38,177 nt of DNA from the IMG/VR virus record IMGVR_UViG_3300017917_001716, positions 1-38,177 of that record. One strand, given 5' to 3'. Source of the stretch: a virus. The notes under the pieces are model-generated. The model searched no databases and was not told the DNA's origin. It saw only the letters and a list, made by a program, of their open reading frames with translations. The translations under genes and the position numbers were made by a program. Each line of letters opens with the position of its first letter. The first letter of the stretch is position 1. Positions 4,357 through 35,013 of this stretch are shown here, in pieces.

Positions 4357-5208
4357 GTGCCAGCGCCAATACCAAGAAGAATTTCTCAGTTTAAGCCATT
4401 AATAACAGATCTAGCACAAACTTCGCATTATCAGGTCATATTTGGATTTTTGCCATATCCACTTCGCAATCATTTATTGGCTCGTGGTATTGAATCTAGA
4501 TTTGTTGGAGAGTCTGTTGGTTTATTGTGTAGTTCAGCATCTTTACCTGGAAGTACTTTTGGGACAACAGATATTGTTGGAAACTTTACAGGAGTTTCTG
4601 AAAAATTTGCACACACTCGTATCTTTACACAAATTGATTTGGAGTTTTATGTTGATAATCAATATAGAACATTAAAGTTTTTGGAACATTGGATGGAGTT
4701 TATATCCAGTGGATCTAATGTTTCTCCATATGAAGATGGTTACTTTTTTAAAATGAGATATCCTCAAGATTATAAAACCAATCAAGTAAAAATCGTAAAG
4801 TTTGAAAGAGATTATCGTAGAAGTTTAGAATATACTTTTTATGGGTTATTTCCTCTAACTTTAAACTCAACGGCAGTTAGTTACAATAACTCTGAAATTT
4901 TAAAAGCGACCGCATCATTTAGCTATGAACGATATGTTTGTGGTAGAACTTTAAGCGTTGATGTTTATACTGGTCAGGATAATAATAAAGATGGAGTTTC
5001 TTACTTAAACTCTTATAGTAGAACTCCTCTTATCCCTAGAACTGGGCAATCTCTTGGAAACGAAAGTGGTGTAAGAATGACTTATACTCCCCCAGGAAGT
5101 GTAATACCTCAAGTTGTTGATCCATATTCCAGATCTGGACTATTGGGACAAAATTTAGATCCTAGTTATTCTTCTGGTGATGTAATAGGAACTAGAAGAA
5201 CAGTCTAA
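4357..5208 (+). CDS. 54: gp54-like tail tube initiator
   Basis: 283 residues starting at GTG; no better in-frame ATG precedes the conserved part. It resembles T4 gp54 (320 aa), the ring from which the gp19 tail tube polymerises. Residues 23-120 contain HYQVIFGFLPYPLRNHLLARG, the SSASLPGSTFGTTDI loop and FTQIDLEFYVDNQYRTLKFLEHWMEFI, typical of tube-fold proteins of the gp54/gp19 class. The C-terminus is a Pro/Ser/Gly tail. It stands alone on the plus strand, divergent from gp4, with its own late box. Confidence 0.8.
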   Translation: MPAPIPRRISQFKPLITDLAQTSHYQVIFGFLPYPLRNHLLARGIESRFVGESVGLLCSSASLPGSTFGTTDIVGNFTGVSEKFAHTRIFTQIDLEFYVDNQYRTLKFLEHWMEFISSGSNVSPYEDGYFFKMRYPQDYKTNQVKIVKFERDYRRSLEYTFYGLFPLTLNSTAVSYNNSEILKATASFSYERYVCGRTLSVDVYTGQDNNKDGVSYLNSYSRTPLIPRTGQSLGNESGVRMTYTPPGSVIPQVVDPYSRSGLLGQNLDPSYSSGDVIGTRRTV

Positions 5209-5235: not shown

Positions 5236-5955
5236 ATGCCTTTACCAAGAATAACAACACCAACATATGAGTTGGAAATTCCATCAAGCAAGAAAAAAAT
5301 AAAATATCGCCCATTTTTAGTTAAAGAAGAAAAAATCCTTATCATCGCCATGGAGAGTGAGGATGCGAGTCAAATTGCTTCTGCTGTTAAAGATGTGGTA
5401 TCTAACTGCATTTTAACAAAAGGAGTTAAAGTTGAAGAACTTGCAACATTTGATATAGAATATTTGTTTTTAAATATTCGTGGAAAATCTGTTGGCGAAG
5501 AAGTTGAGGTTCTTGTAACATGTCCAGATGATAATGTTACACAAGTTCCTCAAGTTATTAACCTAGATGATATTAAAGTTCAAGTTGACCCAGAACACAC
5601 TTCAGACATTAAACTTGATGATACTTTAATTATGAGAATGAAATATCCTTCAATGGAAGAATTTATCAAAAGTAACTTTTCTGTTGGTGGCGACTTAAGT
5701 GTTGAGGATACTTTTGATTTAATTTCATCTTGTATTGAACAAGTTTATTCGGAAGAAGAATCTTGGTCAGCTTCTGATTGCACAAAAAAAGAAATTGATG
5801 ATTTTCTAGAGCAGTTAAGTTCCAAGCAGTTTAAGGAAATTGAAAAATTTTTTGATACCATGCCTAAACTATCTCACAAAATCAAAGTAAAAAATCCAAA
5901 TACTGAAGTTGAAAGTGAGGTCGTGTTGGAGGGATTATCATCTTTTTTCGCATAA
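5236..5955 (+). CDS. 26: gp26 baseplate hub / tail assembly chaperone
   Basis: 239 residues, near T4 gp26 (208 aa). The N-terminus MPLPRITTPTYELEIPSSKK followed by KYRPFLVKEEKILIIAME is the signature of the T4 baseplate protein family. gp26 acts in hub assembly rather than being clearly part of the finished virion. Its position directly upstream of the tape-measure-like genes is that of the G-type tail assembly chaperones of lambda and P2. The last codons form a slippery heptamer with a hairpin behind it (separate entry), so a minor longer product of about 298 residues, gp26 fused to the next frame, is predicted. Confidence 0.85.
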   Translation: MPLPRITTPTYELEIPSSKKKIKYRPFLVKEEKILIIAMESEDASQIASAVKDVVSNCILTKGVKVEELATFDIEYLFLNIRGKSVGEEVEVLVTCPDDNVTQVPQVINLDDIKVQVDPEHTSDIKLDDTLIMRMKYPSMEEFIKSNFSVGGDLSVEDTFDLISSCIEQVYSEEESWSASDCTKKEIDDFLEQLSSKQFKEIEKFFDTMPKLSHKIKVKNPNTEVESEVVLEGLSSFFA

Positions 5956-5985
5956 GTATGGCGCATGAGGATCTTGCGTCATATT
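5943..5985 (+). promoter_or_regulatory. predicted -1 programmed ribosomal frameshift signal
   Basis: The gp26 codons before the stop read TCT TTT TTC GCA TAA. They contain the heptamer T TTT TTC in the correct phase for a -1 slip. Five bases later an 11-bp stem starts: AGTATGGCGCA pairs with TGCGTCATATT (two G-T pairs) around a 9-base loop. After a slip, translation reads CGC ATA AGT ATG and continues into the short gp51-like frame. The stem also buries the ATG of that frame, and no Shine-Dalgarno sequence precedes it. The three elements are visible in the sequence; use in vivo is inferred. Confidence 0.65.
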
Positions 5986-6131
5986 ATAAAGTTAATTTTT
6001 CTTTGATGCAACACCATAAATACTCTTTGACCGAGTTGGAAAATATGATTCCATGGGAGAGAGAAGTTTATTTATCTCTCCTTCATCAATATATTGAAGA
6101 AGAAAACCTAAAACACGGATCTAATGGCTGA
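5958..6131 (+). CDS. gp51-like short frame, probably a frameshift extension of gp26
   Basis: 57 residues from ATG (MAHEDLASYYKVNFSLMQHH onward), containing an aromatic/helical segment NMIPWEREVYLSLLHQYIEEE. It lies in the -1 frame relative to gp26 and overlaps the next gene by 8 bases. T4 has gene 51, a hub assembly factor, directly after gene 26, but T4 gp51 is 249 aa and I see no convincing similarity. The position, shortness, lack of a ribosome binding site and slippery site upstream fit a lambda T-like or P2 E'-like extension better. It could still be made independently at a low level. Confidence 0.7.
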   Translation: MAHEDLASYYKVNFSLMQHHKYSLTELENMIPWEREVYLSLLHQYIEEENLKHGSNG

Positions 6132-7641
6132 GTTTTCATCTCCTATATCTGGTGGTATTAGAGTTGCTAGAAATACTGTATCTTCTAGCGTATTTTCTGT
6201 ATCTCGTCCAGCAGCACCAACAGTTCAGCAACCAGATCCAACAACAATTAATCTTCTAACTCGAAATCAGTTAGCATTGACTTCCATGTCCACTCAACTG
6301 ACGGGCATGGCGCAGCAAATGAGAGATTTTGGAGAATCTTTACAGAGAGTATCAGTCTCTATTGCAAATGATAGTGCTTTAGAGCAACAGAGACAAATAC
6401 AAAAACAAAATCAAGAAAGACAACTTGCCGAGCAACAAATAAGAGAAGGTAAAGAAAGCCAGATAGAGAAAAAAATTCAGTCAGCACTGATTTCTCCAGT
6501 GCAAAAAGTTGCATCAAAAACTCAGGGAATATTATCCAGATTAATGTTATTTTTTACAACTATCCTTACTGGATGGTTGGCAAATCAAGGTATTGAAACT
6601 CTTAGAGCTTTATCGAAAAGTAATACAGAAAAGTTAGAAAATATTAAAAATAACGTTATCAAAAATGTTGCGATCATTGGTGGAGCTTATGCTGCAATAA
6701 GATTTGGATTATTTGGATTAATTTCAACTTCTGCCAGGGTAATCAGTAAAATTTCTGGAGCTCTTATTGGAGGTCTTTTTGTTAATCCAATTCGAGCACT
6801 CATCGATGCAGTAAAAAATGCAGCATCAAAAGTTAAAATACCAAGTTTAGGTACAGCAGCTAGAGCAGCTTCTTCAGGTGCTGGAGCAGTAACGACTGGA
6901 GCAGTTAGTACTGCATTAAATGTTATGAGTGGTAAACCAGTTGATGAAGCTGTTGCTGCAGGAACTGGAGCTGCAGTTGCCACTACAGGAACAGCAGCGG
7001 CAGTATCTAAGTTACCTTTACCTGGACCATTAAAAGTAGCTACCATGATTGGGGCGCCTCTATTAACTTATGGTCTTGGTGAAGAGTTTGGAGTTAAAGC
7101 ACTTAACTATGGTAAATCCTTATTTGGTGGAAACCCATCAGACAAAAATAAACAACAACTATCTAATGCTAAAACTGCGCCATCTACACCAAAGACTCCA
7201 CCAGCAAAAAGTCTAAAACTTGGGGATGGAGAGACTACACAAGATTTTTCAGAGAAACCAAAATATGGAGAAGTCTCCGTATCAATAACAGAAAATAAAG
7301 ATCAATCAAAATTAGAAAATAATAACGCTCAAAGTAATATTCAAACACCATCTACATCTGCATCTACAACATTTCCAGATTATTCTTCTATTTTTTCATC
7401 CACAACATCCGCAAAAGTTGAACCCGTGAAATCTGAAAGTGCAATAGAAAAAGCAAATGCGGTTGGTCCGTTACCAGAACCAAAACCAAATATTGTAGTG
7501 GCACCAACACCTCCAGCACAACAAAATGTTCCTATGACACAATATGGCAGAAGTGCAAATAATGTTCCATATATTTCGGCATCAAATCCAGATAATTTTT
7601 ATACTTTGTATTCTCAAATGAGTTATAATGTGGTGACATAA
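6124..7641 (+). CDS. tape-measure-like hub protein 1
   Basis: 505 residues, unnamed in families I can recognise by eye. Domains in order: a variable Ser/Pro N-terminus; a Gln/Arg/Glu-rich coiled coil at about 45-120; an amphipathic motif QGILSRLMLFFTTILTGWL at 134-152; hydrophobic helices at about 180-225; an Ala-rich region at 245-320; and a long Pro/Ser/Thr-rich disordered tail. Coiled coil plus membrane-like segments, and the site just after the chaperone-like gp26 frame, are what one expects of a tape measure protein (T4 gp29 role). A motif like 134-152 recurs in the next gene. T4 gp29 or gp28 equivalence is inferred from position only. Confidence 0.65.
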   Translation: MAEFSSPISGGIRVARNTVSSSVFSVSRPAAPTVQQPDPTTINLLTRNQLALTSMSTQLTGMAQQMRDFGESLQRVSVSIANDSALEQQRQIQKQNQERQLAEQQIREGKESQIEKKIQSALISPVQKVASKTQGILSRLMLFFTTILTGWLANQGIETLRALSKSNTEKLENIKNNVIKNVAIIGGAYAAIRFGLFGLISTSARVISKISGALIGGLFVNPIRALIDAVKNAASKVKIPSLGTAARAASSGAGAVTTGAVSTALNVMSGKPVDEAVAAGTGAAVATTGTAAAVSKLPLPGPLKVATMIGAPLLTYGLGEEFGVKALNYGKSLFGGNPSDKNKQQLSNAKTAPSTPKTPPAKSLKLGDGETTQDFSEKPKYGEVSVSITENKDQSKLENNNAQSNIQTPSTSASTTFPDYSSIFSSTTSAKVEPVKSESAIEKANAVGPLPEPKPNIVVAPTPPAQQNVPMTQYGRSANNVPYISASNPDNFYTLYSQMSYNVVT

Positions 7642-7642
7642 A

Positions 7643-9523
7643 ATGGCAACCTCTCCGATTTTAGTTAAGTCAACATTAAATATTTCCAATATTAATAAAT
7701 CAATTTCATCTTTGGGAAAAGGTATTGCCAAATCTCAAAAGTCTGTAGGTAGAATCAATCAAGTTCTTTTTAATAAGATTAGGATTAAGAGACAAGCAAT
7801 ATCTCAAGATCGGGTTTATTTTCAACGAAGAAGAGAAGCAGTTAGAAGAAGAGAACAGGAAGATATTGTTGAAGCTTCTGGTATTGGTGGTATTATAAAA
7901 AGGCAGGGAAAAGTTATTTCTAGTAGCACTAGAGGGTTTTTGGGAAGAATATTAGATTTTATAGGAACAGTTTTGGTAGGTTGGTTGATTCAGAATCTAC
8001 CAATTATTATAAAATTTTCTGAAGAACTTATAAAAAAAATACAAAAGTTAGTTGGTGTTCTTGGTGGATTTGTAACTGGTATAACACAAATTTTTTCTGG
8101 ATTTGGTTCTTTATTGTCAGGTTCTCTCTCCAACCTTATGAAATTTGATTTTTCAAGTCAATCTGATTTGATTAAAAACTCAATGGATCAAATGGGATTT
8201 GGATTTAAGGCGATAGAAAGATCGATAGATTCTGCGATATCAATATTAAAAGAACCCATGGATTTATCAATCGAAACTGAAGAAGAATCAGCGGGACTTG
8301 GGCAGCAAGAAAGCACATATCAAGGACCTGGTGGTCCAGAAACAACTAGTGGGGGTAAAGTCTTAAACGCTCAAGCAGGTTATTCTTACTTAAGACAACT
8401 TGGTGTACCCCATATACATGCGCTTGGAATTTTGGCAAATATAAAAGGTGAAAGTGGATTTAGAATTGATTCTAAACAACCAGATGGTCCTGGTGTTGGT
8501 TTATTTCAATATTCAAGTGCTGCAAGAAAACAGGCATTTTTGCAAAATGTTCCAGACTGGAAAACGAATTGGAAGGGGCAAATAAAATACGCCATCGATG
8601 AAGGTGTTGGCCCAACATATTTTAAAACACAATTTTCATCTCCAGAAGAAGCAGCAGAATGGTGGATGAATGAGTGGGAACGTCCCGCAGCATATGTAAA
8701 GGCAGAAAGAAGAAAAAAACATAATGATTTTATTAGATCTTTTAAACCTGGTGGAACAGAAAGACCAATGGCTCCACTTCCCCCAGCTTCTGTAAATCCA
8801 GATAAGAGATATGCAAGAGGGCAATCTGTTCAAGGAATAGGTATCATTACGAGTCAAAGAGGAACAAGAATAGATCCAGTTACTGGAAGATCAGGTTTAT
8901 GGCATGGTGGAATAGATATTGCCATGGATATTGGAGTCTTTATTTCATGCAAATATCCCTCTATTGTTGCTTATGCGGGAAATCAAAGTGGATATGGAAC
9001 TCTGATTGATATTAGAGTTCCTGCTTTAGGTGTAATGCTTAGATTTGCACACTTAAGTAAAATTTTAATACAATCTGGAACCATTCCTGCAGGAACTCCA
9101 TTTGCTCAAAGTGGGAATAGTGGTACGGCAACAACTGGTCCTCATGTTCATATGGAAGCTCACGGATTTAATGAAACTCCTCGTCAACTTGCATATGGTG
9201 GAGATAGAGATCCAGGTCCATATATTGAGTTTATTATGTTTACTAGATCTGCACCTAAAGGTTTTGTTGCTCCACCTCCTCCGTCCAAAAATCTAGCTAC
9301 AATTTCCCCACCAGATCAGACACGAATGCAGTATACTGCAGATACTATGACAAAATCTATGAATAGATCTGGTCCAACTATTGTTATTCAACAACCTGCG
9401 GCATCTCAAACTACATCTTCAAGTGGTGTTCGTGGTGGTAATATATCCATATCTGTTCCATCAGAAAGTTTGTTAAATAGGTCTACAACACAGTCTCTAT
9501 TATTAGCACTAGCATATACTTAA
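7643..9523 (+). CDS. tape-measure-like hub protein with tail lysozyme and M23 peptidase domains
   Basis: 626 residues. An Arg-rich coiled coil lies at about 35-80, then the amphipathic segment RGFLGRILDFIGTVLVGWL (97-115) matching that of the preceding protein, then hydrophobic Gly/Phe stretches to 165. Residues 238-367 resemble the phage tail lysozyme domain: GILANIKGESGF with Glu270 as likely catalytic acid, then GPGVGLFQYSS. Residues 400-510 are an M23 (LytM) endopeptidase with the zinc set His421 and Asp425 (HGGID) and HVHMEAH at 501. Together these would cut both glycan and peptide bonds of peptidoglycan during injection. It follows protein 1 by one base. Confidence 0.8.
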   Translation: MATSPILVKSTLNISNINKSISSLGKGIAKSQKSVGRINQVLFNKIRIKRQAISQDRVYFQRRREAVRRREQEDIVEASGIGGIIKRQGKVISSSTRGFLGRILDFIGTVLVGWLIQNLPIIIKFSEELIKKIQKLVGVLGGFVTGITQIFSGFGSLLSGSLSNLMKFDFSSQSDLIKNSMDQMGFGFKAIERSIDSAISILKEPMDLSIETEEESAGLGQQESTYQGPGGPETTSGGKVLNAQAGYSYLRQLGVPHIHALGILANIKGESGFRIDSKQPDGPGVGLFQYSSAARKQAFLQNVPDWKTNWKGQIKYAIDEGVGPTYFKTQFSSPEEAAEWWMNEWERPAAYVKAERRKKHNDFIRSFKPGGTERPMAPLPPASVNPDKRYARGQSVQGIGIITSQRGTRIDPVTGRSGLWHGGIDIAMDIGVFISCKYPSIVAYAGNQSGYGTLIDIRVPALGVMLRFAHLSKILIQSGTIPAGTPFAQSGNSGTATTGPHVHMEAHGFNETPRQLAYGGDRDPGPYIEFIMFTRSAPKGFVAPPPPSKNLATISPPDQTRMQYTADTMTKSMNRSGPTIVIQQPAASQTTSSSGVRGGNISISVPSESLLNRSTTQSLLLALAYT

Positions 9524-34322: not shown

Positions 34323-35013
34323 TGCAGTATTTGTAAGTGATGTGCATTTGGGTACAACGCGGTGCAATGTAAAGAAGTTTTATAAGTTTCTCAAAGAAAT
34401 CAAAACCAAAAAACTGGTGTTAGTTGGTGATATTATTGATGTGTATTGTATGGAAAAGTACAACACACATTGGAGAAAAGAACACACTGAATGTGTGCAT
34501 CAAATCCTGAATCTTGCAAAGAAGGGTGTAGAAGTCATTTATATTCCTGGAAATCACGAAGGAATGTTGAGACGATACTGTCCTTTTGAACACGAAAACT
34601 TCAAGATGGTTGAAGAGTATGTGTATAAAACCAAAGATGGTGATAAGTATTTCTGCACACACGGAGATCAACACTCTGAGTTCTCATCTGGTTCTTGGAA
34701 ACAACTGGTTTTTAACTGGGGATATGAACTGATTACTCCAATGAGTTTGTTTCTAGAAAAGATCTTTAGATTTTCATTGGTTTATGCATTAAAAAATACC
34801 ATTCGTGGTAAAAATTACATCAATCAATATGAAACTGATCTAGCAAACTATTGCAGACAGAAAGGTGATTATAAAGGTATTATTGTAGGACATATTCATC
34901 ACAACAACATGAGAAAGTTTGATAAGATTGAATACATGTGCTGTGGAGATTTTGTAGATACATGTTCTGCGATTGTGGAAAAGAACGGTTTTTTTCAATC
35001 AGTTAAGTATTAA
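34312..35013 (+). CDS. metallophosphoesterase, LpxH-like
   Basis: 233 residues with all five calcineurin-type metal motifs: SDVHLG (9-14), VGDIID (38-43), GNHE (80-83), THGD (116-119), GHIHH (193-197). The SDVHLGTTRCN start, VIYIPGNHEGMLRR and THGDQHSEF closely follow the UDP-2,3-diacylglucosamine pyrophosphatase (LpxH, COG2908) branch, which makes lipid X for lipid A. A related role in altering host lipopolysaccharide is therefore possible; another phosphodiester substrate cannot be excluded. GGAGAAG before the ATG is a good ribosome binding site. Confidence 0.8.
   Translation: MIFDAVFVSDVHLGTTRCNVKKFYKFLKEIKTKKLVLVGDIIDVYCMEKYNTHWRKEHTECVHQILNLAKKGVEVIYIPGNHEGMLRRYCPFEHENFKMVEEYVYKTKDGDKYFCTHGDQHSEFSSGSWKQLVFNWGYELITPMSLFLEKIFRFSLVYALKNTIRGKNYINQYETDLANYCRQKGDYKGIIVGHIHHNNMRKFDKIEYMCCGDFVDTCSAIVEKNGFFQSVKY

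Follow-up and report, generated by a model that had tools for sequence, protein, structure and literature searches.

Does the gp51-like frame that opens at the end of a gp26-like gene form a gene of its own, or does it encode the second part of a protein that begins with gp26? The question is raised by a T4-like marine phage, virus record IMGVR_UViG_3300017917_001716, whose whole 38,177-base stretch was analysed and is called the window in the following. A sequence-only reading of the window had proposed that gp26 ends in a −1 frameshift signal leading into the gp51-like frame, as in the G/GT tail assembly chaperones of phage lambda, and that gp26 and gp51 of T4-like phages altogether constitute one such system. 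From the comparison with relatives presented here, −1 frameshifting in the G/GT style very probably joins gp26 to the gp51-like frame. This is strongly supported because the signal is conserved, because some relatives have no start codon from which gp51 could be initiated and because the stem downstream of the slippery site covaries; a short and a long form produced from one gene would be a further case, with good support, of a mechanism already known.

The junction and the conservation of its signal

The gp26-like open reading frame ends with ...TCA TCT TTT TTC GCA TAA, in which the heptamer is phased as T (5943), TTT (5944-46) and TTC (5947-49), followed by GCA and the stop codon TAA (5953-55). 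The components of the junction are:

5236..5955, plus strand: gp26-like gene, predicted short chaperone form (TAC-N or 'G'), 239 amino acids; matches PF12322 T4_baseplate (E 5.4e-74) and phrog_150 (E 1.2e-80)
5943..5949, plus strand: slippery heptamer T TTT TTC in the phase of gp26; kept in 176/177 scored junctions and two more
5950..5954, plus strand: spacer GCATA, 5 nucleotides, whose last two bases already belong to the gp26 stop codon TAA (5953-5955)
5955..5985, plus strand: putative stimulatory hairpin of 11 base pairs with a 9-nucleotide loop (5955-5965 with 5975-5985), spanning the ATG at 5958
5943..6131, plus strand: −1 frame extension leading to the predicted long form (TAC-NC or 'GT', 298 amino acids); includes the open reading frame 5958-6131, gp51 by annotation in relatives

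Heptamer, 5-base spacer, 11-base-pair hairpin and a −1 frame open for 60 more codons are all present at 5943-6131, as the sequence-only reading had described them. The −1 frame begins with FFRISMAHEDLASYYKVNF and ends with KHGSNG before the stop codon at 6129-6131 (translation FFRISMAHEDLASYYKVNFSLMQHHKYSLTELENMIPWEREVYLSLLHQYIEEENLKHGSNG); with the junction peptide SSFF-RISMAHEDLASYYK, the fusion would comprise 238 + 60 = 298 amino acids, the length that had been anticipated. In-phase T TTT TTN is found just four times in the 10,366 codons of all window genes, so that its position at the end of gp26 exceeds chance. One further occurrence, T TTT TTT at 34989-34995, close to where a metallophosphoesterase-like gene ends, was rejected as a frameshift site, since the −1 frame there stops after five codons, and is probably a chance occurrence.

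Conservation was scored over 177 gp26 junctions, which form 27 clusters at 65% identity and derive from 80 close IMG/VR relatives, 80 more relatives obtained with a Methylophilales phage query, loci retrieved with Aeromonas and Caulobacter queries, and annotated phages. Scans with gp26 queries yielded few loci (phiAS5 4, Cr30 2, T4 6); the phages phiM9 and ME01 were read additionally, and a contig with an in-frame fusion, L018, was left out of the scored junctions. The heptamer T TTT TTN stands in phase at the end of gp26 in 176 of the 177 junctions (178/179 with phiM9 and ME01) and in 26 of the 27 clusters, its last base being C in 122, A in 29, T in 24 and G in one. From the heptamer start to the stop codon the distance is 7 or 10 nucleotides save for two heptamer-bearing junctions, and the −1 frame is free of stop codons from the heptamer to +33 in all 27 cluster representatives. 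The lineages that bear the heptamer are Kyanoviridae and Methylophilales, Caulobacter, Stenotrophomonas, Acidovorax, Rhizobium/Sinorhizobium, Aeromonas and KVP40-type Vibrio phages. With the proteins given, the synonymous codon choices required have a joint chance of about 10^-8, for which the 26 clusters are taken as independent although they are so only approximately, and this value together with the conservation at the junctions rules out a chance heptamer.

Hairpin, start codons and competing explanations

The strands of the window stem, AGTATGGCGCA (5955-5965) and TGCGTCATATT (5975-5985), form 11 base pairs including two G-U, with a minimum free energy of −14.6 kcal/mol (z −4.0; 0/200 shuffles as stable). 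Over 80 window-clade sequences 94.7% of the stem cells are paired, compared with 27-44% when the partner strand is shifted by 1-3 columns. U-A (57 sequences) is replaced by G-C (21) in one pair, and C-G (78) by U-A (2) in another; stem cells with a double change number 24 versus 6.3 expected from shuffles (0/500 as high), whereby all these counts are of sequences and not of independent events. In the −1 frame the U-A/G-C pair couples a synonymous site, the third base of an Ala codon, to a non-synonymous Glu/Ala site, which is not predicted by protein constraint. A downstream stem-loop with covariation, as in canonical −1 signals, is found in the window clade and is not general across relatives. 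The expectation of a conserved signal held for the heptamer in all scored clusters but one, and for the stem with its compensatory changes inside the window clade only. A universal stimulatory hairpin is ruled out. Unrelated hairpins at a spacing of 5-7 nucleotides occur in P-HM2, Cr30, S-CAM1 and Rhizobium IG49, and other representatives show none. The hairpin of P-HM2 (L181:2187-2216), GCCCTC...GAGGGC, is wholly different from that of the window yet equally located 5 nucleotides from the heptamer, and apparently represents a replaced stimulator. On the basis of these alignments, the heptamer is read as the general signal, near-universal in frameshifting lineages, and the hairpin as a lineage-specific aid.

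Initiation of gp51 from a start codon of its own is no general explanation, as in 44 of the 177 junctions the −1 frame lacks ATG, GTG and TTG over the stretch that starts at the heptamer and ends 33 nucleotides beyond the stop; an independent gp51 gene is thus ruled out for the general case. Among these start-less junctions are members of the window's own clade (L015, L016, L027 and L070), Melnitz-2 and relatives, phiAS5, CC2, IG49 and S-CAM8. In the window, the stem strand 5955-5965 covers the ATG at 5958, in accordance with the proposal that the hairpin hides it. The proposed lack of a ribosome binding site is borne out insofar as, of 20 starts compared, this ATG shows the weakest anti-Shine-Dalgarno pairing (+1.9 kcal/mol); such pairing is, however, equally missing from three further window genes (9524, 27590 and 29350), so that the observation counts little by itself. 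Where the window frame has this Met, other clades have an aligned Leu (FFRISMAHEDL versus FFLIALSHNSL), and the Met is therefore most simply regarded as an internal residue. The published annotation of several relatives omits gp51 or lets it begin far downstream; annotation errors which frameshifting would account for are the unannotated gp51 of Acidovorax ACP17 (L085), Aeromonas CC2 (L180), S-CAM8 (L182) and S-CAM1 (L184), all with an open −1 frame.

Several observations speak against a frameshift or weaken its support. Vibrio phage D531 (L088:2090-2110), the sole scored exception, possesses no heptamer and has a stop/start overlap TAATG instead, which suggests that this lineage may have moved to translational coupling. 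When folded with 100 nucleotides of context, the junction hairpin of the window reaches a z of −1.0 only, and across lineages the hairpin is not universal, with z <−2 in 12/28 representatives compared with 26% of control segments (p 0.05). The E-values of Foldseek comparisons with known chaperones are about 1 and alone not significant. Finally, the ATG at 5958 is invariant in the 80 window-clade sequences, which leaves room for some free C-terminal domain produced there by reinitiation.

This last point is the ground for assuming that both processes take place, with frameshifting giving the long form and reinitiation at 5958 giving a free C-terminal domain as a third product in the window clade. 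Although compatible with frameshifting and in line with an ATG kept throughout the clade where other clades have Leu, such an addition is unlikely: Met-to-Leu is a conservative exchange and the bases of the ATG are part of the conserved stem, which accounts for their invariance even if no translation starts there.

The contig L018 (236 kb) may show how the two frames can be joined permanently. Compared with its closest relative L009 (TCTTTTTTCGGTTAGGTATGGC), L018 has TCTTTTTGGTTAGGAATGGC; two bases of the slippery run are missing, and gp26 and gp51 thereby form one frame of 297 amino acids (L018:2701-2760). No second gp26 was found in the 236 kb and no other viral contig has this junction; the fusion may be real or an assembly error. 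A UAG is located immediately one frame forward of the fusion, so that ribosomes slipping forward would again produce the short form. As a speculation with a slim chance of being correct, the hairpin of the window clade could act as a three-way switch that sets the ratio of three products, the short form upon termination, the long form upon slippage and a free C-terminal domain upon reinitiation at the buried ATG, with L018 inverting this logic by making its short form through a forward slip into the immediate stop.

That the locus consists of two genes, with ribosomes that end at TAA (5953-5955) and reinitiate two nucleotides on at the ATG 5958 to produce a free gp51 of 57 amino acids without any frameshift, is very improbable. 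The same invariant ATG and the annotation of gp51 as its own open reading frame in databases would fit, but a start codon is missing near the junction in the 44 relatives, neither the heptamer nor an open frame ahead of the ATG would need to be conserved, the ATG lacks Shine-Dalgarno pairing and is buried by the stem, and T4 gp51 and L018 are single fused proteins. An equally small probability is given to transcriptional slippage on the T6 run as the source of mixed products. All frameshifting lineages do contain a run of 6-8 T; many members, however, have six T only (TTTTTTC/A/G), which is short for such slippage, and the strict phase relative to the codons and a covarying hairpin at a spacing of 5 nucleotides suit ribosomal frameshifting.

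Products of the junction and the two genes of T4

T4 gene 26 is encoded by the minus strand and lies start to start with gene 51, which is encoded by the plus strand, an opposed layout shared by Melville, Metamorpho, Aes012, PspYZU05 and Ursula. The heptamer is absent from the split-gene loci examined, which comprise these five phages, T4, its relatives L188-L190 and L193, and L192; opposite strands and the absent heptamer rule out that T4 itself frameshifts. Lineages that need the −1 frame have the slippery signal, and those in which the long form comes from a second gene do not. Phe-Phe is retained at the end of gp26 in most split-gene phages, as TTC TTT or as TTT TTT after a codon that does not end in T, and is lost in Aes012. 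That the heptamer is a mere by-product of a conserved Ser/Asp-Phe-Phe motif without a translational role, as this retention (T4 KEFFELL) might suggest, is hardly credible, since precisely these codon choices leave the split-gene phages without the heptamer, constancy of the first Phe codon and of the T before it is confined to phages that use the −1 frame, and the joint probability stated above is minute.

T4 gp26 and gp51 are homologous: PF12322 is matched at full length by T4 gp26 (E 8.8e-64) and by residues 1-201 of T4 gp51 (E 3.9e-52), and the two proteins match each other with E 2e-6 in a single comparison. Whole T4 gp51 matches positions 13-280 of the 282 of phrog_150, and its residues 200-246 match the −1 product of the window (E 1.6e-5 in a small comparison). 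The −1 open reading frame matches phrog_634 (gp51, 'baseplate hub assembly catalyst'; E 4.8e-26) and also the C-terminal positions 239-278 of the gp26 family phrog_150 (E 2.1e-6), which indicates that gp26 and gp51 are fused in some phages. With gp26 of the window matching PF12322 and both frames joined corresponding to T4 gp51, the locus belongs to the T4 gp26/gp51 family. As judged by these matches, T4 gp51 consists of a gp26-family domain followed by the domain called 'gp51' in cyanophages and is equivalent to the frameshift product, T4 gp26 is the equivalent of the short form, and cyanophage 'gp51' corresponds to the C-terminal domain of T4 gp51 only. From this domain composition it follows that T4 would have the short and the long form as two genes. 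The proposal that gp26 and gp51 of T4-like phages are one G/GT system is consequently strongly supported for the frameshifting lineages, by conservation, start-less relatives and stem covariation, and fails for T4 with its two genes on opposite strands.

The AlphaFold model of gp26 (pLDDT, the predicted local distance difference test, 86.5) was compared with solved structures by Foldseek. The HK97 tail assembly chaperone gp13 (PDB 2OB9; probability 0.72 and 0.51) and RBSTP2171 (PDB 3FGX; 0.75) are the best-probability matches, at E about 1, and the only ones listed with a probability >0.1, with a core of 54-72 columns. In a model of the fusion the extension consists of helices of low confidence, and chains of 2OB9 and 3FGX are listed again (0.41-0.60). 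A sequence-profile search of solved structures gave no match. The models are suggestive of a chaperone fold of gp26.

The genes around the junction are:

4357..5208, plus strand: tail tube protein gene, directly upstream; PF23849 (E 5.4e-19) and phrog_45 (E 3.2e-40)
6124..7641, plus strand: next gene, candidate tape-measure-like protein of 505 amino acids, by position and a weak phrog_35029 match
7643..9523, plus strand: tail protein with lysozyme and M23 peptidase domains (PF18013, E 2.7e-16; PF01551, E 6e-12), candidate tape measure

The open −1 frame beyond the gp26 stop, conserved at the protein level, and the adjacent tail tube gene are those of a G/GT cassette; on the downstream side there is a candidate tape measure, suggested by its place in the gene order and a weak profile match. 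Gene 6124-7641 overlaps the −1 frame by 8 nucleotides, and gene 7643-9523 matches phrog_4070 (tail length tape measure protein; E 2.6e-8) over its peptidase part. In Cr30 and RHph_I1_18 the annotated tape measure is located two genes downstream. The products of 6124-7641 and 7643-9523 have a hydrophobic segment of 64 residues in common (33% identity, E 1e-6) and look like duplicated tape-measure-like proteins.

From the sequence we infer the occurrence of frameshifting, its efficiency and the molecular role of the products as follows. Most ribosomes would reach the gp26 TAA and release the short tail assembly chaperone of 239 amino acids, and a minority would shift into the −1 frame on U UUU UUC, aided in the window lineage by the hairpin 5 nucleotides downstream, to give the 298-amino-acid form with a C-terminal domain of 60 residues that is probably helical. 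The short form would coat the tape measure protein and the C-terminal domain of the long form would bring in tail tube subunits, on the model of lambda G/GT. Genes 26 (short form) and 51 (long form) of the T4 branch may go back to a duplication and then an inversion, with loss of the slippery site.

Comparison with known tail assembly chaperones

Compared with lambda gpG/gpGT and P2 E/E+E', the window has a gp26 of 239 amino acids with an extension of 60, and the slippery heptamer of lambda and P2 differs from T TTT TTC. A frameshift signal is conserved across much of the T4-like world, marine cyanophages included, and T4, with its two genes, is best regarded as a derived exception.

Among long-tailed phages G/GT frameshifting has been described as widely conserved, T4 excepted (Atkins 2016, PMC5009743). 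T4 gp51 is required yet not found in the particle and has been of unknown function, and gp26 and gp51 have been listed as hub assembly chaperones (Leiman 2010, PMC3004832). The sequence-only reading knew of no report for gp26/gp51; this has to be corrected in view of work on T4-like tail chaperones by Vladimirov, Gautam and Davidson (Virology 2022, doi 10.1016/j.virol.2021.11.003), which, according to the PRFect paper, describes T4-like phages in which a short gene and a longer, fused one take the place of frameshifting (PMC10885494) and, according to the Adele paper, slippery poly-T sites that T4-like phages have in their TAC-N genes (PMC12846349). As characterized in these citing papers, the short and long forms and the poly-T sites are like those of the window, so the chaperone identity of gp26/gp51 and frameshifting in some T4-like phages are taken as already reported, and publication of the chaperone identification in 2022 reduces the weight of the present finding. 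The Pakpunavirus/Vandenendeviridae locus likewise resembles the window, with a conserved poly-T −1 frameshift at the end of the short form and ahead of the tape measure gene, but belongs to a different phage family and uses the motif GTTTTT where the window and its relatives have T TTT TTN (PMC12846349).
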